Source of the DNA: Pantoea ananatis LMG 2665 | GTDB lineage: Bacteria > Pseudomonadota > Gammaproteobacteria > Enterobacterales > Enterobacteriaceae | Reading direction: 5' to 3' | NCBI RefSeq assembly: GCF_000710035.2 | Contig: NZ_JMJJ01000006.1 | Location: 434,001-498,000 of the forward strand | DNA: 64,000 nucleotides | Shown here: positions 22,473 to 34,146 of the stretch, in pieces | Layout: each line of letters begins with the position of its first letter | Numbering within the stretch: position 1 is the first letter of the stretch | Notes under the pieces: generated by a model | The model's input: the letters and a program-made list of their open reading frames with translations, nothing else | The model's database searches: none | What the model was told of the DNA's origin: nothing | Program-made: the position numbers and the translations under genes

Positions 22473-24383
22473 TTACAGCCGGCTCAGACAGTCCAGCGCG
22501 ACGCTTTTAAAGCAGGCAAAGTCACTGCTGTCGCGCAATCGCGTCATCGCCCGCTCGCGCATAAAGGTCACGAACAGGTCATAGATAGCCATCGCTTCCT
22601 CATACTCGTTTTTGCTGATTGCCAGCAGGAAAATCACGTAAGCCGTGTCCTCGCCCCAGGGGATACCCTGCGGGGCCAGCACGGTGTACACCACCGTTTT
22701 TTTCGCCATCAGCCCCAGCGAATGCGGAAGCGCAATCCCTTCGCCCAGCATAGTGCTGACAATGGCTTCACGCTCCTCAACGGAAGCATAAAACGCATTA
22801 TCCACCACGCCTTCTGCCTCCAGCCGATCGCATAACAGCCGAAACAGCGCAGACTGACTCATCGGCCGATCGATGATGCAGAAATGGCGGGCATCAAAAA
22901 ATTTCTCCAACATATAGGGCCGGGTGCGGTCCACCAGCACCAGCTTGCCTATCTGCTCCCGTTGAAATTCCGTCGGGAAAGGTGCGACCACGACAACCGG
23001 TTTCTCTTTTTCACTCAGCCGCGTGGTGGAAATCACAAAATCTTCTTCGATGCGTTGGCGGGCCTCATATTCACGCTGCGACAGGCACTGCGTCACCTGC
23101 AACTGGGGATAGTTGCGCATTAACATGGCTTCGATCATGCGGAGCGTCGACGTACCGCTGTCGCACACCAGCAGTACCTGAGGGCGACGCTGGTAACCCA
23201 CGTTATAATGGCGCTCCAGCCCGACGCCGATATGAAGCACCAGAAAGCCAATTTCATTTTCGCTAATCGTATAGGGCGAATATTTTCCCCAACTGGACAC
23301 CGCCGCCAGCGTCACATCATAGGCCATTGGATAGTGCTGCTTGATGTTGCTTAATAACGGGTTAGGAATATGGATCTGATAACGCACGCGCGTGATCATC
23401 GTTTTAATATGGGTAAGCAGATCGGCACGGAGTTGAGGATCGTTCTGCAGATCGTAATAGTAGTGAGTGTTAATAAAGCTGAGCAGGTAGTTAACCAGCG
23501 CCTCCGCATCGTCAGCATTAATGGCGCTGGGGGCAACGTCCTGAATGCGTCGGGCGGCGATATTCACCCGCAGCCAGCTCTCTTCCGCCGGAGAAACCGG
23601 TTTAACGGTAAGCGGCCGCAGCGCATGGATCAGCGTCTGCGCAGACTCGCGCACGTCCTCCCCGATCTCTTCCACCTGCGGATCGCTCAGCGGATAGCCT
23701 TCATTGATGCGACGTAGCGCCACCGCGCAGTAAAAACGCAAATAGCGTTCGCCTTCATCACTGAGGCGGATATTGTGCTGGGCAAGGCCGTTTTGCAGCA
23801 GCGGCTGAAGAGTTTCCAGCAGGCCGCTTTCCAGCGATTCGGGCACGATCAGCGGGCTGTCAGGCTGCTCCTGATCGATCTCAAACAGCAGATCGGTTAA
23901 GCAGGTGCGGATCGCCACTTCACTGCCAAACAGCTTCATGCCGTGATGGGGTTTGCTTTCGATACTCAACTGATAACGGCCGAGCCATTCGCGCACGTCG
24001 GCCATGTCATTCTGCAGCGTGGCACGGCTGACAAACCACTCCTCTGCCAGGGTTTCCAGCTTCAGGGAATAGGCGGCGGTGAGGAAACGCACCAGCAGGT
24101 AGCGGATTCGGTCGTGTGAGGTGCGCGGCACCCGCAGAGGCGCACGCGTCTGCTGCTGCAGCACGTTAAAGCGCAGCGCATCAATAATTTTAAGCTGGTA
24201 GCCCGCACCGCGATTCAGGACAAACTGCGCGCCGTGCTGCTGCAGCATGGCGTTGAGCGCGGTAATATCCGTGCGTACGGTGCGCGTGGACACCGCAAAC
24301 CGCCGTGCCAGTTCGTCCTGGGGGAGCGTTTCGTCTTTCAATGCGTCGAACAGTTGCGCAAGGCGCTGATTCGGGAATCTCAC
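22473..24383 (-). CDS. PRD-containing transcription activator with EIIB and EIIA domains
   Basis: This 636-residue regulator has the MtlR/LicR-type layout: a winged helix-turn-helix of the HTH_11 type (about residues 5-60), a second HTH-like region (about 90-165), two PTS regulation domains (about 185-270 and 290-395), a gat/lev-type EIIB domain with the phospho-cysteine candidate C407 in LLVCDSGTSTL, and a C-terminal mannitol/fructose-type EIIA domain with H554 in GIALPHSLG. PRD2 keeps H384 and H392. In PRD1 the expected histidine seems to be replaced by tyrosine (about Y218). It is the last gene of the cassette that follows, and presumably controls it in response to PTS phosphorylation state. 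The substrate is unknown. Confidence 0.88.
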   Translation of the reverse strand: MRFPNQRLAQLFDALKDETLPQDELARRFAVSTRTVRTDITALNAMLQQHGAQFVLNRGAGYQLKIIDALRFNVLQQQTRAPLRVPRTSHDRIRYLLVRFLTAAYSLKLETLAEEWFVSRATLQNDMADVREWLGRYQLSIESKPHHGMKLFGSEVAIRTCLTDLLFEIDQEQPDSPLIVPESLESGLLETLQPLLQNGLAQHNIRLSDEGERYLRFYCAVALRRINEGYPLSDPQVEEIGEDVRESAQTLIHALRPLTVKPVSPAEESWLRVNIAARRIQDVAPSAINADDAEALVNYLLSFINTHYYYDLQNDPQLRADLLTHIKTMITRVRYQIHIPNPLLSNIKQHYPMAYDVTLAAVSSWGKYSPYTISENEIGFLVLHIGVGLERHYNVGYQRRPQVLLVCDSGTSTLRMIEAMLMRNYPQLQVTQCLSQREYEARQRIEEDFVISTTRLSEKEKPVVVVAPFPTEFQREQIGKLVLVDRTRPYMLEKFFDARHFCIIDRPMSQSALFRLLCDRLEAEGVVDNAFYASVEEREAIVSTMLGEGIALPHSLGLMAKKTVVYTVLAPQGIPWGEDTAYVIFLLAISKNEYEEAMAIYDLFVTFMRERAMTRLRDSSDFACFKSVALDCLSRL

Positions 24384-24431
24384 GTCGGGTTACCTGCTTC
24401 AGCGGTTAACAAGAACAAAGTAAACGTCAGA

Positions 24432-24452
24432 CTGCCGGAAAACAGGCGGCAG
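24432..24452 (-). other. Small hairpin between dgaF-like gene and PRD regulator
   Basis: CTGCCG and CGGCAG form a perfect 6-bp stem with a 9-base loop in the 126-bp gap between the aldolase gene and the regulator gene. It could be a partial terminator or processing site that lowers expression of the regulator relative to the enzymes. There is no T run. Confidence 0.4.
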
Positions 24453-24509
24453 GTCTATTATGCCCTGCGCGCCCGTAATCTGTCCTTGAAGTGGCGCACA
24501 GGCCTGGGC

Positions 24510-25250
24510 TCAGTCCAGCAGACTTTTACAGATGGCCAGCAGTTGGCGCACGTCTTCCACGCGGGTTTCGCCACTGGCTTTGTCGATGATCGAACTGTAA
24601 ATGTGGGGAATGATCTTGCTCACGCCAGCGTCCAGCGCAATACGCAGGATCGGCCCAACGTTTTGCAGATCGATCCCGCCGGTCGGCTCCAGCCAGAAAT
24701 CCTGTTTCGCACAGGCTTCGGCCACCGCGCGGTACTCGTCCACCGTATCCAGACCGCCCATTGGAAAATACTTCACGGAACTGCCGCCCATGTCCTTCAG
24801 TAACGCAATCGCGGTATCAATGGGCACAATTCCGTCGCTGCTCTGTGAACTGAGGGGACCGGTGGAAATTTTCACCTTGCCCGGCGTGCCGGTTGGTGAA
24901 ATCAGCCCGTTGACTACCGTTTGTGACTGACCGAGCAGCGCACGGCTGGTGCCGACGCCGGTAAACACCTGATTAACATGTTGCGGCTGTAGCACGGCGG
25001 CCAGTTCGCTGACCATTCGCGACTGCCGGGGATCGCCCGCGCCCAGGCCGATGGACAGCGCGTTATCAATCAGCGCGGCGTACTCGCGCATATCCGCAAT
25101 AGCGGCCTCGTTGCTGGGGTAGTTTTTTGATAACACGCCGACCAGTACGTGGCCTTCTGCGGCCTGCCAGATGGCTCGCGCGTTCTCTTTTGAACCCGCC
25201 AGCACGTTAAGACACAGGCGATCCTGATAAAAATTGGGGGTTAGCGTCAT
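24510..25250 (-). CDS. dgaF: KDPG aldolase-like protein (DgaF type)
   Basis: The 246-residue protein matches the DgaF family, whose Salmonella member cleaves 2-keto-3-deoxygluconate 6-phosphate to pyruvate and glyceraldehyde 3-phosphate. The probable Schiff-base lysine is K160 in VKYFPMGG, corresponding to the KFFPA-type motif of KDPG aldolases. EPTGGIDLQNVGPIL near residue 200 supplies the C-terminal glycine-rich phosphate-binding loop. It follows the dgaE-like gene by one base, so the pair is translationally coupled. In Salmonella dgaE and dgaF sit beside a mannose-type PTS, whereas here they sit beside an uncharacterised membrane system. Confidence 0.85.
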   Translation of the reverse strand: MTLTPNFYQDRLCLNVLAGSKENARAIWQAAEGHVLVGVLSKNYPSNEAAIADMREYAALIDNALSIGLGAGDPRQSRMVSELAAVLQPQHVNQVFTGVGTSRALLGQSQTVVNGLISPTGTPGKVKISTGPLSSQSSDGIVPIDTAIALLKDMGGSSVKYFPMGGLDTVDEYRAVAEACAKQDFWLEPTGGIDLQNVGPILRIALDAGVSKIIPHIYSSIIDKASGETRVEDVRQLLAICKSLLD

Positions 25251-25251
25251 G

Positions 25252-26367
25252 CTATTTTTCTCCTGTTAACAGCGCCTGAATGCGGGTGAAAATAATCTGC
25301 AGCTGCTCAGCGCTGACGCTGCGCACGTCGGCTTCAATAACGCCCTCATTGGCTTTGTAGCCACGGAAGTAAATGGCGATATCACCGTTTTTTAGCGCCT
25401 GCACCAGATCGCCGGTCTGATGCCCGATTGTGGTCTCATCGAATTTGATCTCTGCCCGGGCAATGTCGCGCCCGGCGGCATCCCATACAACGCGCGCACT
25501 GACGCCATCCAGACCGTTAAGGTTGTTGATGAAAGGCGTCATTTTTTCCACCATCTGGGCGCCGGTGGTTTTCGGCAGGGTCAGGTAGGATTCAATGGCC
25601 TGGGTCAGTCCCAGAATCCCCTCTTTGCCCACTTTCATGGTGCGGCCAATGCCGTTGCTCTGGCGCTTCACCCACTCGACAAGCTGATGTTTCCCGATAA
25701 CCAGGCCGCTGGTGGGGCCTTCAATGGCTTTGGCCCCGCTGTAAATAACCAGATCGGCACCCGCCTGGTAATAGCACTGCAGATCTTCCTCAGCGGCGGC
25801 ATCCACGATAAGCGGCACGCCATGCTTACGTGCCACCTCGGCGGCCTGCGCCACGCTCAGGTGGCTCTTTTGTACACAGTGATGGGACTTCACATAGAGA
25901 ATGGCCGCCGTCTGGGCGGTGACTGCAGCGGAAAGCTGCTGTGGCGAGCACTCGTTACTGTAACCCGCCTCAACCGTCCGACCGCCGCCCAGCGCAATCA
26001 TGCTGCCAACGGGCGCGCCGTAATTCACGTTATGCCCTTTTGGCACCACGATGTCGTGCGGCACGGTCAGCGGTGCGCTATGTAAATTATCCAGCAGCCA
26101 GTCGTCATCTTTCACAATGACGGCAGCCACGCTTTGGGCGATGCCCGCAGAAGCACAGGACACCACCAGCGCATTTTCCACCTGCAGCAAATTAGCGATG
26201 TAAGCCCCGGTCTTATCAACCAGGTCCTTCACTTCAAAATAGTGCTCCAGGCCGTATTTAACCGTATCAACCACGTCGCTGGCCGGTGTAGACACGCCAA
26301 GAATGGTCATGCGGCCAGAGGCATTAATGACCTGCTTCAGGCCATATTTCTCATACAGTGAAGACAT
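25252..26367 (-). CDS. dgaE: PLP-dependent ammonia lyase (DgaE type)
   Basis: The 371-residue protein is a SelA-related PLP enzyme of the DgaE family. Salmonella DgaE converts D-glucosaminate 6-phosphate to 2-keto-3-deoxygluconate 6-phosphate and ammonia. The PLP-binding lysine is K213 in YSGAKAIEGP, with the cofactor-contact aspartate in LIVDAAAEEDL (about residue 189). A start at 26367 (MSSLYEKYGLKQVINASGRM) overlaps the end of the amidohydrolase gene by 17 bases, showing tight coupling. The exact substrate here may differ from glucosaminate 6-phosphate, because the transporter and the amidohydrolase are different. Confidence 0.86.
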   Translation of the reverse strand: MSSLYEKYGLKQVINASGRMTILGVSTPASDVVDTVKYGLEHYFEVKDLVDKTGAYIANLLQVENALVVSCASAGIAQSVAAVIVKDDDWLLDNLHSAPLTVPHDIVVPKGHNVNYGAPVGSMIALGGGRTVEAGYSNECSPQQLSAAVTAQTAAILYVKSHHCVQKSHLSVAQAAEVARKHGVPLIVDAAAEEDLQCYYQAGADLVIYSGAKAIEGPTSGLVIGKHQLVEWVKRQSNGIGRTMKVGKEGILGLTQAIESYLTLPKTTGAQMVEKMTPFINNLNGLDGVSARVVWDAAGRDIARAEIKFDETTIGHQTGDLVQALKNGDIAIYFRGYKANEGVIEADVRSVSAEQLQIIFTRIQALLTGEK

Positions 26368-27484
26368 TGTGTTTTTTCCCTTCTTCAGTCATCCAGCACT
26401 CACCGGCGACGATAGCCGCCAGAGGAATCAATTGGCGATCGCCCTGCTCCGCCAGCCCTTCCGCATCCACAAACGACACGGATTCGTGCGCCACGGTAAA
26501 CAGGGTAAAGTCGGCATCAAGTCCGGGCTCAATAGCACCTTTGCTGCGTAATCTCAGCCCGCTGGCCGCCTGATGCGTTACGCAGGCAATAATCTGTGGC
26601 AGCGTCATGCCTACATTGAAAAATTTCGACATCACGTGCGCCAGGGTATAAACCGGTCCGTTCAGACGATTGCGGCAGTAGATGTCTGAACTGATGGTGT
26701 CAGGCAGAATGCCTTGGGCAATCGCCGCGCGCGCCACCTCAAAGCTGAAGCTGGCACTGCCGTGGCCAACATCAAGCCGCAAGCCCCTTGCCAGTGCCTG
26801 TTTTACCGCTGCACGCAGTTGCCCTTCGGGCGTCAGGATGCGGTTTGGCTTGCCGTTGTAGCAGTGGGTGATGATGTCGCCGGAGGTCAGCAACGCGGCG
26901 ATTTCATCGAGGTTGGGGGGATTGTTACCAATATGCACCATCAGGGGCAGGTTGCCATTTTCCTGCTGAATCGCCTTCGCCAGCACCAGCGGCCGAATGC
27001 CGTTTTCGCCCACCACGCTGCTGCTCATCCGGGCTTTAAGCCCGACGATAAAATCGGGATGACGTCTTACCGCATCGGCAATCGCCGGGCGATCAATCTG
27101 GGTCATGTCCGCCAGTTCATTTTGGGTAACGATGCCGGTGCGGGCGATATTCAGCAGCGCAAAAACCTGGGTGGTGACCGCTTGCGTGCGCTGTCTGAAA
27201 TCATCAATGTCGTCTGCACCTGTACTGCCTGCATCGACAACACAGGTGACGCCGCTTTCCACGCCAATCCGGTCGGGATGATCGTGATAGATGGGCGATT
27301 TTTCATAGCAGTGTACGTGGGAGTCGATCCAGCCCGCACTGAGATAGCAATCCACCGCCAGGGTTTGTTCCACTTTTGCCCTGCCGGTTACCTCACCCAC
27401 GGCGGCTATTTTTCCGTCGAGTATGGCGATATCGATCAGACGTTCATCCGGCAGTCGCGCCCGACGCAGAATCAGATCGTACAT
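26351..27484 (-). CDS. Amidohydrolase/deacetylase family metallohydrolase
   Basis: The 377-residue protein is an amidohydrolase-superfamily enzyme with the dihydroorotase/N-acetylglucosamine-deacetylase-like layout. The binuclear metal site is visible: H56 and H58 in DSHVHCYE, the likely carbamylated lysine K150 in VGLKARMS, H184 in MVHIGN, H207 in THCYNG and the catalytic aspartate D267 in SSDIYC. I recall this family as part of a conserved but uncharacterised gene cassette together with DgaE- and DgaF-like enzymes. It probably hydrolyses an amide (acyl group or lactam) from the transported compound before the ammonia lyase acts. The start at 27484 has AGGAGA before it. Confidence 0.82.
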   Translation of the reverse strand: MYDLILRRARLPDERLIDIAILDGKIAAVGEVTGRAKVEQTLAVDCYLSAGWIDSHVHCYEKSPIYHDHPDRIGVESGVTCVVDAGSTGADDIDDFRQRTQAVTTQVFALLNIARTGIVTQNELADMTQIDRPAIADAVRRHPDFIVGLKARMSSSVVGENGIRPLVLAKAIQQENGNLPLMVHIGNNPPNLDEIAALLTSGDIITHCYNGKPNRILTPEGQLRAAVKQALARGLRLDVGHGSASFSFEVARAAIAQGILPDTISSDIYCRNRLNGPVYTLAHVMSKFFNVGMTLPQIIACVTHQAASGLRLRSKGAIEPGLDADFTLFTVAHESVSFVDAEGLAEQGDRQLIPLAAIVAGECWMTEEGKKHNVFTV

Positions 27485-27538
27485 AGGAATCTCCTTTGAC
27501 TGCCCCGATCGGCCTTCACCAATCGGGCATTAACGCGA

Positions 27539-28183
27539 TCAGATCGCGACCGGAAAAATCGCGCCGAGGATCATGGCACCGAGGATCGCCCCGCCGGTGA
27601 TCGGTTTGTTCCACAGATAGAACACCAGCGCACCCAACAGCGAACCGAGACCGATAGGAATGGAGGCGCCCATGGCGGCCAGGATAATCAATGGCCCCAG
27701 GAAGCGTCCTGATGCATTGCCCGCGCCCATCATCACGTCCGCACCATAGGTGCTGTTGCTTTGATTAATGGTGAACTTACGCGCCAGAATGATGACGTAG
27801 CCTATCGCCACACCGATAACCAGACCGGTGACCAGCGAAGCCGCAAAATTCGCCACCGGGAAGACAAAACCGGCGCCCAGCAGCAGCGCGGGCACGCCCA
27901 ACCCGACGCCGGTCTGGATGGCACCACCGATATCCAGAATCCCGACCAGCGATCCTTCAATGATGCGGGCGAACAGAAAGCTGGCACCGAAAGCGGCCAC
28001 CGCGCCGTAAACGCCGGTATCGATGCCCGCCCGTAACATCGAGACGAAGGCCACTTCGTTAAAAGCGCCGATACCGTACAGGTAGTACATATGGGTCCCG
28101 GCAAACACGCCGGAGGAGAGCAGACCGACAAAAATCGGGAATGACCAGTCGGCATACCAGAAACCTTTGTTTGATTCTTCCAT
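27539..28183 (-). CDS. DUF4310-type integral membrane protein
   Basis: This 214-residue hydrophobic protein has six or seven predicted membrane helices (about residues 13-36, 44-72, 77-100, 102-133, 160-190 and 195-214) and a short charged loop near 133-142. It matches the DUF4310 family as I know it. Function is not established. Always finding it with the next three genes and with sugar-acid enzymes suggests it is one half of a membrane permease. Glycine-rich helices (AIQTGVGLGVPALLLGAGF) resemble those of EIIC-type channels in composition only. Confidence 0.8.
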   Translation of the reverse strand: MEESNKGFWYADWSFPIFVGLLSSGVFAGTHMYYLYGIGAFNEVAFVSMLRAGIDTGVYGAVAAFGASFLFARIIEGSLVGILDIGGAIQTGVGLGVPALLLGAGFVFPVANFAASLVTGLVIGVAIGYVIILARKFTINQSNSTYGADVMMGAGNASGRFLGPLIILAAMGASIPIGLGSLLGALVFYLWNKPITGGAILGAMILGAIFPVAI

Positions 28184-28196
28184 TGCAGACGCTCCG

Positions 28197-28973
28197 TTAT
28201 TTGCCGCTCAGGCTGTTATGAATACTGTCGAGCCAGCCAGGAATGCCGAGCTGGAAGGATTGCAGCATCTTCATATCGAAACCGCGGAAGAAGGCGCTGA
28301 GAACAAACAGGGCGACGATGGCGGTCATCATGATTTTGGTCACTTTGTTCCAGCCGCTCTCTTCAACCCCTTTACCAATCAAAATGCCCAGCACCAGGCC
28401 CGGTACGGCATTGCCCATAATCAGCTGTGCCAGACCGCCGAAGATGGTGGCCCAAAAGCCCGATTTCTTACCGGCGTCAATTGCCGCCAGCCAGAAGATC
28501 ACCGGCATGACCGTGTTCACCAGCAAATTAGCGGCCGGTACCAGCACCTTTACCGCCGTGACCTGCAGAGCCGCCGGAACAGCAGAGGCGGTCGAGTTGA
28601 GAAAAGCCACCACCACCATGCCGATGATGCCGCAGGCGATAGCCATCTTTTTCGGGTCGTGTAGCGTCTCTGCCACATTGCGGTTTTTGATCATGATCGC
28701 CGCCGCGCCCCAGTTGGGGATGATGCGATGATCCACGTCCTGCGTGAACGCACCCGCCGCCACGGAGGAGGCCCAGGCGTTAAAGAAGAATCCCAACCCA
28801 AAAGAGAAGTGAGAGGCAGGATCGCCTTCACAGGAGTTAAGTTCACCCAGTGTGCGAAAGGCGCCCATACCTTGTGTCGTCGGGGCATGGAACATGCGGG
28901 CGGCACCGGCGCCCACACCGACGCCCACGAGGCCGCCGATAATTAACGACTTGAGCAAAATGATGAGAAACAT
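28197..28973 (-). CDS. DUF4311-type integral membrane protein
   Basis: This 258-residue membrane protein has about six helices: an N-terminal helix (residues 2-24), a hydrophobic region after a conserved-looking polar stretch (TLGELNSCEGDPASHFSFGLG, split across residues 41-61), and later helices near 110-135, 143-165, 172-198 and 212-230. The polar segment with cysteine and histidine, followed by DVDHRIIPNWGAAA, could be a substrate-binding loop. It ends 13 bp before the DUF4310 gene and probably forms a heteromeric permease with it. The family is uncharacterised as far as I know. Confidence 0.8.
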   Translation of the reverse strand: MFLIILLKSLIIGGLVGVGVGAGAARMFHAPTTQGMGAFRTLGELNSCEGDPASHFSFGLGFFFNAWASSVAAGAFTQDVDHRIIPNWGAAAIMIKNRNVAETLHDPKKMAIACGIIGMVVVAFLNSTASAVPAALQVTAVKVLVPAANLLVNTVMPVIFWLAAIDAGKKSGFWATIFGGLAQLIMGNAVPGLVLGILIGKGVEESGWNKVTKIMMTAIVALFVLSAFFRGFDMKMLQSFQLGIPGWLDSIHNSLSGK

Positions 28974-29006
28974 CCTCTTTCCTTATATGTGTTGTTTGAG
29001 GCTGAC

Positions 29007-29303
29007 TTACACGCGGGTGAACTCGACCTTATCGCCGTCCAGGCAGGTCACGTTAATGGTGACCTCCAGGTCGACGCTGAAGAGCCTGCGCTCGCGTGCC
29101 AGGAAAAAGAAAAGGAATTTTTCGGTTGTGACGCGTTCCCGCGCGCGCACCACCTTTACGTCCTGCGGTTCAATGCGCAGCAGAATCTTATTGGCGTTGC
29201 GCAGGACTTCGTGCTGTACACGACTCAGCGCATCTGCGAAGGCTTTCGCCTTGGTGTCGCCCTTACCGCTTACGGCAACCGAGGTTGTAAAGGTCTCTTT
29301 CAT
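29007..29303 (-). CDS. DUF4312-type small protein
   Basis: The 98-residue soluble protein matches the DUF4312 family of unknown function. It begins MKETFTTSVAVSGKGDTKAK and alternates short beta-like and helical stretches, with a basic cluster (VKVVRARERVTTEK) and FLFFFLARERR in the middle. It sits between the SFCGS gene and the DUF4311 gene with 3-bp and 33-bp gaps. Small size and position suggest a cytoplasmic partner of the membrane proteins. No catalytic motif is apparent. Confidence 0.78.
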   Translation of the reverse strand: MKETFTTSVAVSGKGDTKAKAFADALSRVQHEVLRNANKILLRIEPQDVKVVRARERVTTEKFLFFFLARERRLFSVDLEVTINVTCLDGDKVEFTRV

Positions 29304-29306
29304 TCC

Positions 29307-29663
29307 TTATCCACCGTGTTTTTTGTTCCAGGCCTGAACCAGACGTTCACCCAGCTCTTCTTTGTCCATAAAGCCGAAGCCCAGCACGTTCGCGCCTTCA
29401 TTAATGGCGGTTACGCCTTCATCCACAGAGCGCATACCATGTTTGGCCTTATAGCCGTATTTGTTTTGCGCCGTAATCGCGCCTGCCCCTCCGCTGCCGC
29501 AAAAGGAGATACCGAAATCGGCATTCTCTGCTTTCATGACGTCGCCCAGCTTCATGTCTGCCGCGACGCCCGGCACCACAACGGCACGGCCACCGGCTTT
29601 TTCTACGCCAGCCGCCACTTTTTGTCCTTTACCTAAACGATCGCCGATCACTACGGTTACCAT
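29307..29663 (-). CDS. Glycine-rich SFCGS-family protein
   Basis: The 118-residue protein carries the signature that names its family: a beta-strand followed by SFCGSGGAGAITAQ, with C55 at the start of a glycine-rich turn. It begins with a short strand and glycine turn (MVTVVIGDRLGKGQKVA). Its length and alpha/beta pattern resemble a small phosphate-binding or EIIB-like domain, and the C-G-S-G-G turn after a hydrophobic strand recalls the phospho-cysteine loop of PTS EIIB proteins. That functional reading is an inference; the family has no known activity that I can cite. Confidence 0.8.
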   Translation of the reverse strand: MVTVVIGDRLGKGQKVAAGVEKAGGRAVVVPGVAADMKLGDVMKAENADFGISFCGSGGAGAITAQNKYGYKAKHGMRSVDEGVTAINEGANVLGFGFMDKEELGERLVQAWNKKHGG

Positions 29664-29690
29664 ATGTCTGTTCCTCTCAGGGTTGGAAAA

Positions 29691-30035
29691 TTAGTCGTTC
29701 TTCGCCACTTCAAAGTGGACAGAAAGCAGCCAGGCTTCTTCTGGTGGCAAATTGCCAAACAGGTCCACCACCTGCTGTGCCAGCGCCATCGACTCTTTGG
29801 AAATTTCGTCAAACAGCTCAGCCTCAACCTCTGGCAGACTCTCGCCGGTGACGGATCGCAATGCCATTGCCCGCACGTGCGAAGCCAGCATTTGTATCTG
29901 CACGGCATTCGGCTGGATGGCCCGCTCGGCAAAAAGCACCTCAATCTGCGCCATCACGCGATCCGTCAGGGCCTGAATCCTTTGCTGTTCGTCTTGTGAC
30001 GCATTCATCGCTACCGCTCCCTTACCCGTACTCAT
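29691..30035 (-). CDS. Single PRD-domain protein
   Basis: This 114-residue protein is a lone PTS regulation domain without DNA- or RNA-binding domains. It has the typical helical pattern and a conserved-looking histidine pair: H68 in MLASHVRAMALR and H107 in LLSVHFEVA. It is the first gene of the cassette. Two starts are possible: 30035 (GGAAG six bases upstream) and 30008 (GGGAG eight bases upstream). It may sense PTS phosphorylation and act on the large PRD activator at the other end of the operon, or on the transporter. Confidence 0.78.
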   Translation of the reverse strand: MSTGKGAVAMNASQDEQQRIQALTDRVMAQIEVLFAERAIQPNAVQIQMLASHVRAMALRSVTGESLPEVEAELFDEISKESMALAQQVVDLFGNLPPEEAWLLSVHFEVAKND

Positions 30036-30329: not shown

Positions 30330-31766
30330 TTATGACTCAGCGTCAGTGGGCTGACGTAATGGCGTAACGCGGTTTTTGTCGTCAACGGGCTGGAGGCGAT
30401 GCGTTTTACGTCGGCTAATGGCGGCCACGATCAGGGCAAAACGCGCTTCATTCAGCTTGTAGCAGAAGCCCATGATCAACGCCGCCGCAATCGCCAGCGA
30501 ACAGGGCCAGATAAAGATCAGCTGCCTTAAACCTGCCAGCGTGCCATCGCTTTGTACGGCATTGGGCACGTAGCCTATTTGCGTCAGCATCAGACCGGGC
30601 AAAAATCCTGCCAGCGCGGCGGATATCTTGCGAAAGAAGGTGTAGCCCGTGTAACAGGCACCTTCTGCCCGAATGCCGGTTTTCCACTCCCCGTACTCTA
30701 CGGTATCCGGCACCAGCGCCCAGTTAAGGCTATTAACGAATGCCGTACCGAAAAACGCCACGCAGGAGAACATGACGAACAGCAGAGAGCTGCTTCCCCA
30801 GAGAAAGTTACCCAGATCGCCCAAGGCCCAGAGGATGAGTCCCCCCAGATAAACCTGTTTCTTACCAAACTGTTTTACCGCTGTGGGCACCAGCAGTACG
30901 CCCACCAGAATACAGCCCATGCTGAAGAAGCCCATCCAGGAGAGCAAATGAACATCGTTCAGCACGTACTGCGTGTAGTAGACCTGAATGGCCAGCTTGA
31001 TATTAAACGCCGCCAGGGTACAGAGGTTCGCGAGGCACAGAACCAGCAACGGCGGATTGTGAAAGATGGCGCGGAAGGCCGTTGCCACACCGGGTTTATG
31101 ATGCGTCGGGGTGAGCTCAACATAGCGCTCTTTAACCCCGCTGTAACAGAACCACATGCACAGCAGCCCGGCGACCACAAAGACGGCGGCGGCAACCTGA
31201 TAGCCCAGCGCACTTTTGCCAACAAACAGCGACTGAATGGGCATAAAGCACACGGTGCAAACCAGTAATCCCACCGTTGCCCCGCCCTGCCGCCAGGCGG
31301 CGAGGTGGGCGCGTTCGTGGGGATTTTTGGTTATGGCTGGCACCATTGCGCCATAGGAACAGTTCATCAGGCTGTAAAACAGACCAAACGTCATAAACAG
31401 GGCGGTCGCGATCGTTGTCTTTATCGTCAGGCTAAAGTCGTTAGCAACAAACTGTGCCGCAGCCACCAGCGCTACCGGCAGCGAGAAATAGAGAATAAAA
31501 GGTCTGAATTTTCCTCTCGTGCCAATATGGCGGCGTGAATCCAGCACAATGCCGGTGAACATATCGGTTAGGGCGGTAAAGAATTTCGCCACCAGGAAAA
31601 TCACCCCGCCGTACCAGGCTGGCATGCCCAGCTCATCGGTGTAGAACTTGAGTAAATAAAGCGTCCCGATAGTCAGCATCAGGTTGGAGCCAAAATCACC
31701 GACGCCGTAAGCCACCTTCTCACGCAGCGGGAGTTTCAGCGTTAATGGATCGGAGCCTGTCTTCAT
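30330..31766 (-). CDS. yihO: GPH-family permease of the sulfoquinovose cluster (YihO-like)
   Basis: The 478-residue protein is a glycoside-pentoside-hexuronide:cation symporter (MFS-related) with twelve membrane segments and the family start KLPLREKVAYGVGDFGSNLM. It is the last gene of the yih operon, the position of yihO in E. coli, where YihO is the presumed sulfoquinovose importer. The start at 31766 follows AAAGGA; a longer frame reaching 31802 is less likely. It is closely similar to the neighbouring permease, so the two arose by duplication. Which imports and which exports cannot be read from sequence. Confidence 0.82.
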   Translation of the reverse strand: MKTGSDPLTLKLPLREKVAYGVGDFGSNLMLTIGTLYLLKFYTDELGMPAWYGGVIFLVAKFFTALTDMFTGIVLDSRRHIGTRGKFRPFILYFSLPVALVAAAQFVANDFSLTIKTTIATALFMTFGLFYSLMNCSYGAMVPAITKNPHERAHLAAWRQGGATVGLLVCTVCFMPIQSLFVGKSALGYQVAAAVFVVAGLLCMWFCYSGVKERYVELTPTHHKPGVATAFRAIFHNPPLLVLCLANLCTLAAFNIKLAIQVYYTQYVLNDVHLLSWMGFFSMGCILVGVLLVPTAVKQFGKKQVYLGGLILWALGDLGNFLWGSSSLLFVMFSCVAFFGTAFVNSLNWALVPDTVEYGEWKTGIRAEGACYTGYTFFRKISAALAGFLPGLMLTQIGYVPNAVQSDGTLAGLRQLIFIWPCSLAIAAALIMGFCYKLNEARFALIVAAISRRKTHRLQPVDDKNRVTPLRQPTDAES

Positions 31767-31811
31767 AAGTGATCCTTTTAGCGCCGCGACCGGCGCAGTC
31801 ACAAAGCCAAA

Positions 31812-33206
31812 TTAGCGCTGACGCTTACGTGCATCGATCTCCTCAATGATACGGACATACATCTTCTCATTGAGATTGTAGAAGCACCCCATGGCCACGA
31901 TGGTGATCACGGCCAGCGCACCGGGATAGATGAACATCAGCTGCTTCAACCCTTCTACCGTTCCGGACGACTGAATCACGTTGGGCACGTAGCCGATTTG
32001 TGTCAGCATCCAGCCGGGGAAAAAGCCGGCCAGCGCCTGTGAGACCTTACGGAAAAAGGTAAAACCGGTATAAACCGTACCTTCAGAACGAACGCCCGTC
32101 CGCCATTCCCCGTACTCCACCGTATCGGAAACCAGCGCCCAGTTAAGGCTGTTGACAAAGGCTGAGCCAAAAAAAGCCAGACAGGAATACGCGACAAAAC
32201 TGACCGAACCGCCGCCGAAGAAATAGTTGAGCAGATCGCCCGCGACCCAAATCAGCAAACCGCCGATATACACTTTTTTCTTACCAAAGCGCCTGACCGC
32301 GCCGGGCATCATAAATACGCCAATAAAAATGCACCCCATGCTGAAGAATCCCATCCATGACAGCAGAATGGGATCGTTCAGCACGTACTGGGTGTAATAA
32401 ACCTGGATCGCCAGTTTGACGTTAAAGGCGCCCAGTGTGCATAAGTTGGCAATGCACAGGATAAACAGTGGACGGTTGCCCGCGATGGCACGGAACGACG
32501 CTAACAGTCCCGGTTTCTGCGTGGGGCTGCTGGCGGGTTGCTCGACATAACGCTCTTTTACGCCGGCATAACACCACCACATAAAAAATAAGCCAAACGC
32601 CGAGAACAGCGTGGCCGCAACGACATAACTCAGCTGCGGATTGCCTTCAATCAGGTTCATGACCGGTACAAAACCCACGGTACAGATCAGCAAGCCCAGC
32701 GTTGCGCCGCCCTGCCGCCACGCGGCCAGTGCGGCACGCTCGTCGGGGTTTTTCGTCATCGCGGGCACCATCGCACCGTAGGAACAGTTCATCATGCTGA
32801 AGAACAGGCCATACATCATAAACAGCACTGTGGCGACGATCGTTTTTCCGGTGACGTCAAACGGCGTACCCACAAAATTGGCGATAGCTAACAGGGTTAC
32901 CGGAAAGGCCGCGAACAGCACGAAGGGACGGAACTTGCCTTTCGGGCCAATCCGACGCCGCGAATCCAGCATGATGCCGGTGCCCATATCGGTAAAGGCG
33001 GTAAAAAACTTGGCCACCAGGAAAATGATGCCGCCGTAGGTTCCCGGCAGCTCCAGCACGTCGGTATAGAACTTCAGGAGGTAGAGCGTACCGATATCTA
33101 ATAAAATATTTGAACCCAGATCGCCGATGCCATAGGCGACTTTCTCTTTGAAGGGCAACCGTAACGTCGCCGGTTCACTGCCGGAAGCAAGATGGTGTTG
33201 GCTCAT
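31812..33206 (-). CDS. yihP: GPH-family permease of the sulfoquinovose cluster (YihP-like)
   Basis: The 464-residue permease is a second GPH-family member, beginning LRLPFKEKVAYGIGDLGSN and ending NLNEKMYVRIIEEIDARKR. It lies where yihP does in E. coli, between the distal permease and yihQ. Shared motifs with its neighbour include MNCSYGAMVPA.TKNP, AAWRQGGAT and NLCTLGAFNVKLAIQVYYTQ. UniProt-style annotation of YihP as a dihydroxypropanesulfonate exporter is tentative. The start at 33206 (MSQHHLASG) was preferred because the upstream extension runs into the neighbouring tauE/safE-like gene. Confidence 0.82.
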   Translation of the reverse strand: MSQHHLASGSEPATLRLPFKEKVAYGIGDLGSNILLDIGTLYLLKFYTDVLELPGTYGGIIFLVAKFFTAFTDMGTGIMLDSRRRIGPKGKFRPFVLFAAFPVTLLAIANFVGTPFDVTGKTIVATVLFMMYGLFFSMMNCSYGAMVPAMTKNPDERAALAAWRQGGATLGLLICTVGFVPVMNLIEGNPQLSYVVAATLFSAFGLFFMWWCYAGVKERYVEQPASSPTQKPGLLASFRAIAGNRPLFILCIANLCTLGAFNVKLAIQVYYTQYVLNDPILLSWMGFFSMGCIFIGVFMMPGAVRRFGKKKVYIGGLLIWVAGDLLNYFFGGGSVSFVAYSCLAFFGSAFVNSLNWALVSDTVEYGEWRTGVRSEGTVYTGFTFFRKVSQALAGFFPGWMLTQIGYVPNVIQSSGTVEGLKQLMFIYPGALAVITIVAMGCFYNLNEKMYVRIIEEIDARKRQR

Positions 33207-33252
33207 GATTTCTCTCCGCTGCCCCACTGAACCTGTCAGCAGGGCCGCTTTT

Positions 33253-34146
33253 TCAGGATGGTTTTGAAGCGTTTTGTTGCTCGATTTCAGCGCGAATAGC
33301 GGCCACTTTTTTACCAAACAGCAGCTGCATGACGGCCAGCAGGCCAAATGAGGGCACCAGTACCTGCCAGGCCGGGATATCCAGAGCGCCTTTGATCAGC
33401 ATGGAGCCCGAAGCAATCAGCAGGAGAAACACCATCAGTCGGAAAGCCCGCACGGAGATACGCTTGTGCACATACTGGCCCACTAACGATCCAAGGATCA
33501 TGGTAGGAATGCAGAACATCACCAGCTTGACCGTTGAGACCGTTAAAATGCCGCTGGTGGTCAGGCCGCCAATAATGGCGATGTTATTCGCGGTAAAAAA
33601 TGCATTGAGCGTGCCGCGAAAAGCAGCGGGTGCCAGATTCCTTAACATGCCGTAGATCACGACGGGCGGACCGTTGGTGGCAAACGCCGAGCCGAGCGCC
33701 CCGGCGATAATACCGGTGGGCATCACTATCCAGTTTTTGTCATAGACAGGCAGACGAGGAATAAACAGGCTGTAGAACGAATAAAGGATCAGGAAAACGC
33801 CCAGCCCGGTTTTCATCACGTCGTCCGGAAAATTGGACAGCGCGTAAATGCCCAAAGGGATACCGGCAAAGGAGAACAGGATCAGCACCAGGGCTGACTT
33901 CCAGTTGGTTTCCTTGCGAGACAGCCAGGTGGCATACAGCGCCGTTGCCGTCCCCACAATCACCGACATCGGTGCAGCCATTTTGACCGGCAGCAGCAAC
34001 GTCACCAGCGGCATCGTAACCAGCGCGCCACCAAATCCAGCACAGATGCCAATAAAGGTGTACAGAAACATAATGGCAATAATGATGCAGACGACCTCAG
34101 TGGTGATTTCCAGACCTTCAGGTGTAAGTAGCGTAAAGAAATCCAT
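33253..34146 (-). CDS. TauE/SafE-family sulfonate or sulfite exporter
   Basis: The 297-residue protein is a TauE/SafE (TSUP, PF01925) membrane protein with eight or nine helices. Family motifs are visible: GICAGFGGALVTMPLVTLLLP-like repeat 1 near residues 29-50 and GIIAGALGSAFATNGPPVVIYG-like repeat 2 near 150-172. TSUP proteins export organosulfonates or sulfite. Within a sulfoquinovose cluster the obvious cargo is 2,3-dihydroxypropane-1-sulfonate, the end product of the pathway. E. coli K-12 has no such gene in its yih cluster. The start at 34146 (MDFFTLLTPEGLEI) has AGAAAGGA upstream. Confidence 0.86.
   Translation of the reverse strand: MDFFTLLTPEGLEITTEVVCIIIAIMFLYTFIGICAGFGGALVTMPLVTLLLPVKMAAPMSVIVGTATALYATWLSRKETNWKSALVLILFSFAGIPLGIYALSNFPDDVMKTGLGVFLILYSFYSLFIPRLPVYDKNWIVMPTGIIAGALGSAFATNGPPVVIYGMLRNLAPAAFRGTLNAFFTANNIAIIGGLTTSGILTVSTVKLVMFCIPTMILGSLVGQYVHKRISVRAFRLMVFLLLIASGSMLIKGALDIPAWQVLVPSFGLLAVMQLLFGKKVAAIRAEIEQQNASKPS

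Follow-up and report, generated by a model that had tools for sequence, protein, structure and literature searches.

How would an N-acylated amino-sugar acid enter a bacterial cell, and where would its phosphate come from? These questions are raised by a cassette of nine genes at positions 22473-30035 of the window, by which we mean the whole stretch of 64,000 nucleotides that was analysed from Pantoea ananatis LMG 2665 (RefSeq assembly GCF_000710035.2, contig NZ_JMJJ01000006.1, positions 434,001 to 498,000). We propose that five of its proteins (lone PRD, SFCGS, DUF4312, DUF4311 and DUF4310) may form an importer powered by the phosphotransferase system (PTS) and possibly phosphorylating its substrate, a reading that we hold with a little less than even confidence. 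Nine intact open reading frames (ORFs) were found, all on the minus strand and of the families named in an earlier note on this DNA, whose description of a tightly packed one-strand cassette is thus correct. They are listed below in window numbering, with family calls taken from curated NCBIfam cut-offs and Pfam domains and with candidate roles in terms of the PTS Enzyme II (EII) components EIIA and EIIB.

29691..30035, minus strand: lone PRD protein, 114 amino acids (TIGR03582), with no DNA- or RNA-binding domain; candidate EIIA-like phosphocarrier
29307..29663, minus strand: SFCGS protein, 118 amino acids, soluble (TIGR03577 and PF14272); candidate EIIB-like subunit
29007..29303, minus strand: DUF4312 protein, 98 amino acids, soluble (TIGR03578)
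28197..28973, minus strand: DUF4311 membrane protein, 258 amino acids (TIGR03580); candidate permease subunit
27539..28183, minus strand: DUF4310 membrane protein, 214 amino acids (TIGR03579); candidate permease subunit
26351..27484, minus strand: amidohydrolase/deacetylase, cytoplasmic (TIGR03583)
25252..26367, minus strand: DgaE-family pyridoxal phosphate (PLP) ammonia lyase (TIGR01437)
24510..25250, minus strand: DgaF-type 2-keto-3-deoxy-6-phosphogluconate (KDPG) aldolase (above the cut-offs of TIGR03581 and NF047796)
22473..24383, minus strand: transcriptional regulator with helix-turn-helix, Mga, two PRD, EIIB-like (Cys407) and EIIA-2 (His554) domains (Pfam)

The intergenic gaps are 3-54 bp, except for 126 bp between DgaF and the regulator, and the amidohydrolase and DgaE genes overlap by 17 bp. 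In the regulator, His325, His384 and His554 are kept in 91 of 91 sequences and Cys407 in 86 of 91, the other five having serine.

The cassette would be an operon complete in itself, by which an N-acylated 2-amino-2-deoxy-aldonic acid, for example N-acetyl-D-glucosaminate, is taken up and degraded; in some hosts a periplasmic lactonase would first open the lactone. DUF4311 and DUF4310 would form the membrane channel in the role of EIIC, joined on the cytoplasmic side by the subunits SFCGS and DUF4312. Phosphate would pass from phosphoenolpyruvate through Enzyme I (EI) and HPr to the lone PRD (His53/His107), acting as EIIA, then to Cys55 of SFCGS, acting as EIIB, and from there to the entering sugar acid. 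Inside the cell the amidohydrolase would strip the acyl group, the DgaE-type lyase would yield KDPG and DgaF would cleave this to pyruvate and glyceraldehyde 3-phosphate, with the PRD/EIIB/EIIA regulator reading the phosphorylation state of the relay and switching the operon on. Transport, phosphoryl relay, substrate and regulation are what we infer here from sequence, and the parts differ in strength. It is probable that the five proteins are a multi-subunit importer and somewhat likely that this importer depends on the PTS; that it phosphorylates its substrate itself is nearly, but not quite, an even matter. More tentative is the proposal that the PTS permeases include an unrecognised class with a free PRD as phosphohistidine carrier and an RpiB-like protein as phosphocysteine carrier; the yhf operon of Escherichia coli would be a second branch of this class with another membrane subunit.

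Is the grouping of these genes due to chance? About 85,000 species genomes were scanned and at least 498 relatives of DUF4311 were found, the best 80 of which, all from Enterobacterales, were taken forward. Synteny was counted at 83 loci: all nine genes are present in 80, and two shorter sets lie on loci that stop at a contig end, so the grouping is not a chance one. Where the contig allows, the same gene order is seen in Enterobacterales, in Aeromonas/Pasteurellaceae-like genomes, in a two-replicon genus and on Bartonella plasmids, in several chromosomal settings; at the Enterococcus faecalis locus the regulator has moved to the front. The DUF4311 protein of the window is 98% identical to those of Pantoea stewartii and Pantoea allii, and no relatives were found on viral contigs. 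A similar cassette in Enterococcus and Aeromonas had been mentioned in the earlier note, and this is borne out by E. faecalis and Aeromonas loci and by the NCBIfam/TIGRFAM cassette EF_0829-EF_0839/AHA_3910-3917 (TIGR03577-TIGR03583). The window carries the same cassette in conserved order, with eight of its nine genes above the cut-offs of these models and TIGR01437. The NCBIfam models label most of the proteins hypothetical and give no mechanism, and no functional study of DUF4310, SFCGS, STM444x or EF083x was found in the open-access literature, which leaves subscription journals mostly outside. What is new here for this databased cassette is the PTS-permease reading, the parallel with yhf, the Bartonella HPr-EI protein and the lactonase insertions.

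The proposed carriers have the residues that such a relay would use. His53 (codon 29877-29879) and His107 (29715-29717) of the lone PRD are the two classical PRD phosphorylation positions, and on alignment to PRD2 of the regulator they fall on its two conserved histidines. Together with Arg60 they are kept in 94 of 94 sequences of a protein with just 12 of 114 positions invariant; the E. faecalis counterpart is only 29% identical, yet retains both. In hhalign comparisons the protein is homologous to YhfY (P=3.8e-9) and closer to it than to the regulator PRDs (1.1e-5 and 1.7e-3). Its fold is of a kind that the PTS phosphorylates, without being that of an EIIA, for which it is a candidate stand-in. 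In SFCGS, Cys55 (codon 29499-29501) is invariant (95 of 95 sequences) and aligns with the cysteine of the RpiB CGTG motif. The matches of the family to RpiB and DUF2620 are weak but consistent: among 24 members, 19 match RpiB (PF02502) at E<=0.1, the best at 1e-3, and six match DUF2620 (E=4e-3). SFCGS probably has an RpiB-like fold with an invariant cysteine, as YhfU does; it differs from the RpiB/LacAB isomerases in missing their gathering cut-off and full active site, since by eye the ring-opening histidine at the next motif is not kept. DUF4312 has an invariant Arg43-Ile44-x-Pro46, no conserved histidine or cysteine and no hydrophobic segment. If the relay is as proposed, PRD domains would be phosphate carriers in transport as well as the phosphorylated modules of regulation that they are known to be.

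The earlier note spoke of a four-protein membrane system. This has to be amended, because hydropathy gives about six transmembrane segments each in DUF4311 and DUF4310 and none in SFCGS or DUF4312, both soluble. Nothing else in the cassette is as conserved as the membrane pair (invariant positions make up 45% and 48%, vs 20-26% for the enzymes): in DUF4311, 116 of 258 positions are invariant over 96 sequences, among them His29, His55 and His82, and in DUF4310, 102 of 214 over 94 sequences. PDB sequence searches with DUF4310, DUF4311, DUF4312 and SFCGS returned nothing significant. The pair has no Pfam EIIC match, and its hhalign comparison with the E. faecalis EIIC was not significant, the profiles being shallow and of low power. 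The idea that DUF4311 and DUF4310 are a split YhfT was plausible by eye and was rejected, as hhalign was not significant, also with a more diverse set; the score of this profile alignment was reached by 121 of 240 and 36 of 240 class-preserving shuffles. A weak E. coli match for DUF4311 was put down to chance, the similar match in two relatives being a DjlA-like glycine-rich protein. The likeness that we propose to the PTS Enzymes II of mannose, glucitol, ascorbate and glucose types lies in a candidate histidine carrier, a candidate cysteine carrier, membrane subunits and a PTS-type regulator, and in the linked HPr-EI of Bartonella, whereas the membrane proteins and SFCGS have no detectable homology to the EIIC, EIID and EIIB proteins tested. 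The proposed importer would be like an Enzyme II in its working, yet outside the membership of the known families. The note's new transporter is supported insofar as the DUF proteins, with DUF4310/4311 as putative transport proteins, are the only transport candidates accompanying the enzymes; in place of "replacing the PTS" we would rather speak of what is possibly a PTS permease of unrecognised parts.

The enzymes indicate what such an importer might carry. The amidohydrolase, whose closely related solved structures are 8wzy and 2ics and whose start has no signal peptide by eye, has the intact binuclear metal site that had been claimed for it: His56, His58, Lys150, His207 and Asp267 are conserved in 94 of 94 sequences and His184 in 93 of 94. 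The catalytic lysines are likewise confirmed, Lys213 of DgaE in 93 of 93 sequences and Lys160 of DgaF in 91 of 91. DgaE also keeps His163 and the phosphate-side Arg304, Arg335 and Arg349 in 93 of 93. These arginines align with Arg301, Arg332 and Arg346 of the solved Salmonella D-glucosaminate-6-phosphate ammonia lyase (DGL) 7lc0 (numbering read from the alignment), which docking placed around the substrate phosphate (PMC9529869). The assignment as a DgaE-type lyase holds at the level of the family (TIGR01437 passed) and not at that of the D-glucosaminate-6-phosphate lyase equivalog NF047797 (379 vs 600 bits). DgaF passes the KDPG aldolase equivalog NF047796 (383.7 vs 300 bits), so the carbon skeleton arriving at it should be KDPG-like; the Salmonella enzyme is established to require KDPG. 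The enzymes fit a predicted route from N-acyl-glucosaminate 6-phosphate through glucosaminate 6-phosphate and KDPG to pyruvate and glyceraldehyde 3-phosphate. An N-acylated amino-sugar acid, which the amidohydrolase had been suggested to de-acylate, is a sensible candidate substrate.

The cassette shares with the Salmonella dga system the DgaE-family lyase and the DgaF-type aldolase, with the catalytic and phosphate-side residues conserved. It is unlike that system in having a PRD/EIIB/EIIA regulator, an additional amidohydrolase and, in place of the DgaABCD permease, five other proteins. Salmonella imports glucosaminate by the DgaABCD PTS (PMC9529869); this mannose-type permease is not in the cassette, and the sole EIID in the genome of the window is ManZ-like and unlinked. 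Between DgaF and the regulator, 31 of 83 loci have an inserted gene for a seven-bladed lactonase (PF10282; for example L013:13504-14658); it is absent from the window and from most Pantoea. By eye, the lactonases inspected have a signal-peptide-like hydrophobic leader that ends in AxA-like motifs, and a periplasmic lactonase would be in keeping with the import of a sugar acid. In E. faecalis the cassette has in addition a PTS EIIC, a hydrophobic protein of 99 amino acids and a MupG-type 6-phospho-muramidase (L011 10548-13283), and this insert of EIIC and MupG-type enzyme suggests a cell-wall-derived substrate in that organism.

Supply of phosphate from the general PTS is suggested by Bartonella. 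The full cassette is found there on two plasmids, each about 56 kb in size, and 64 bp downstream of it, on the same strand, lies an HPr-EI fusion; this linkage, like the gene content, residues, conservation and synteny given here, is directly observed. The fusion passes both EI and HPr models, its HPr GLHARP and EI GGATSHVAILAR motifs are readable, and it has no EIIA domain. Caballeronia and Paraburkholderia have its closest relatives in the plasmid collection, at about 55% identity. The one in Caballeronia grimmiae joins an EIIA domain to HPr and EI and drives the glucose IIBC (PtsG) encoded next to it, whereas the Bartonella protein is without this EIIA domain. Phosphate must therefore pass to other proteins, and the cassette offers the lone PRD and the EIIA of the regulator. 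The annotation of the HY406 plasmid lists no further PTS permease, a result that holds for the plasmid alone. On the same plasmid, replication, toxin and partition genes are doubled as an inverted repeat (L112 274-3218 and 4310-7254) near a type VI secretion cluster.

The chief rival is an importer of DUF4311/4310, SFCGS and DUF4312 that does not phosphorylate, with the PRD as a PTS switch on importer or regulator, in the manner of inducer exclusion, and with phosphate added inside the cell, ahead of DgaF, by a kinase encoded elsewhere, be it KdgK acting on 2-keto-3-deoxygluconate (KDG) or a kinase of sugar acids. We regard this as a real possibility, though far from the likelier half. PRD domains are classically regulatory, DUF4310/4311 are unlike every EIIC tested, and KdgK is present in many of the genomes. 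Kinases do not recur beside the cassette, which itself has none save, in E. faecalis, a PfkB related to KDG kinases: among recurrent neighbours (within 4 kb, read by eye, part of them scanned against Pfam) no kinase, known PTS permease or other transporter was recognised. The neighbourhood search suggested earlier thus gave nothing recurrent, E. faecalis with its EIIC and PfkB being the exception. KdgK and EIID were followed in 19 cassette-bearing genomes of the two genera designated g177 and g14. A KdgK orthologue is absent in eight, where PfkB matches are at most 32% identical or lacking, and a mannose-family EIID in 14. Both are absent in six (G349, G389, G478, G556, G630 and G593), which are 99-100% complete, some of the assemblies being fragmented; in all six the genes from PRD to DgaF are present, HPr is present, and there is no full-length DgaE besides that of the cassette. 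As both KdgK and a mannose-type PTS are missing, phosphorylation in these six genomes probably comes from the cassette; an unrecognised kinase is possible instead. KdgK as the source of phosphate is weakened by the genomes that lack it, and the conserved phosphate-side arginines of DgaE also speak against a non-phosphorylating importer. Entry by way of ManXYZ or some other known permease of an unlinked PTS, with DUF4310-4312 and SFCGS left to sensing, by-product export or a membrane enzyme step (SFCGS as a sugar-phosphate isomerase-like protein), is in our judgement improbable. The PTS import of glucosaminate in Salmonella, the ManXYZ of the window genome and the resemblance of SFCGS to RpiB would agree with it; the 14 genomes without any mannose-family EIID weaken ManXYZ as the importer, and the partial RpiB motifs of SFCGS and the strong conservation of the membrane pair also count against this reading.

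Several observations weigh against the phosphorylating PTS-powered importer. KdgK, as an orthologue of 68%, and ManXYZ are both encoded in the window genome, unlinked to the cassette, and the E. faecalis cluster adds a PTS EIIC and the KDG-kinase-like PfkB. The Bartonella HPr-EI could serve the regulator, or regulation, only. The match of SFCGS to RpiB is below threshold (19.2 vs the Pfam gathering cut-off of 24.7 bits), and SFCGS as a relative of EIIB was rejected, hhalign finding no similarity to GatB, UlaB, ManX or SrlE. For DUF4310/4311, hhalign against ManY, ManZ, SrlA, SrlE, UlaA and YhfT was not significant, at low power. Structure prediction, proposed in the earlier note for all four proteins, was run on DUF4310 and DUF4311 and gave no usable model (AlphaFold pLDDT 51 and 42, from near-identical Enterobacterales alignments; no Foldseek match at E<=0.001). 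A distant solved relative of the DgaE family, 8t7j, with unassigned substrate, also has the arginine triad, so that a phosphorylated substrate is not specifically proved by it. It may also be that the importer is as proposed and the substrate is another, the amidohydrolase cleaving some other amide or ester, with a further 2-amino-aldonate 6-phosphate as the compound on which DgaE acts. This is a question of the substrate alone, is compatible with the other readings and seems to us rather unlikely: DgaE passes the family and not the equivalog cut-off, and cog3964 relatives, Atu3266 among them, are hydrolases for esters of the acetyl-(R)-mandelate type, whereas DgaF calls for a KDPG-like skeleton and DgaE matches DGL at His163, Lys213 and the arginines. 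The suggestion that the transporter may itself phosphorylate is thus favoured by the six genomes, the Bartonella linkage and the invariant histidines and cysteine, and opposed by the E. faecalis insert and the KdgK and ManXYZ of the window genome. A phosphorylating PTS-powered importer is the account with the fewest extra assumptions. If it is true, a new class of PTS permease would explain the orphan cassette of Enterobacterales, E. faecalis, Bartonella plasmids and relatives, and perhaps yhf; even without the phosphorylation step, the cassette would be a testable route for the use of N-acylated amino-sugar acids.

A comparable arrangement is found in the yhfSTUVWXYZ operon. YhfY (PRD), YhfU (DUF2620) and YhfT (membrane) sit with enzymes, including a PLP enzyme, in E. 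coli and Cetobacterium, the latter in the order PRD-DUF2620-YhfT. What yhf shares with the cassette is a homologous PRD and a small, cysteine-bearing, probably RpiB-like protein beside a polytopic membrane protein. SFCGS and YhfU align with P=2.4e-3 in hhalign, their cysteines in one column; the YhfU cysteine and the first YhfY histidine are kept in 9 of 9 sequences, and the second YhfY histidine is lost. The operon differs in its single membrane protein, YhfT, in having no DUF4312 and in its other enzymes. As no similarity of YhfT to DUF4310/4311 could be detected, we claim a recurrent logic of the module and not a shared family. A divergent YhfT-like protein (31% identical; L107 7878-9296) occurs without PRD or DUF2620 genes, among neighbours that resemble a molybdopterin oxidoreductase complex.

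Just upstream of the window cassette, on the same strand, are tandem genes for GPH-family cation symporters (30330-31802 and 31812-33347, minus strand), which do not recur beside the cassette at other loci. Scans for CRP sites and promoters upstream of the PRD gene gave no excess over chance. At one locus (L150, genome G334) the cassette is decaying as a whole, with partial matches to SFCGS, DUF4310, the amidohydrolase, DgaF and the regulator, as if its function had been lost as a unit. An Aeromonas caviae record (L157 9720-10268) has an apparent internal deletion from DUF4310 into DgaF, the amidohydrolase and DgaE being gone. A locus of genus g177 has a gene of the HPr family in tail-to-tail orientation to the cassette regulator (L147, about 2626-2923) and an RpoN-like ORF further along, and RapZ-like neighbours occur at about 10 Enterobacterales loci; from these HPr, RpoN-like and RapZ-like neighbours, the cassette often stands beside an apparent nitrogen-PTS cluster.

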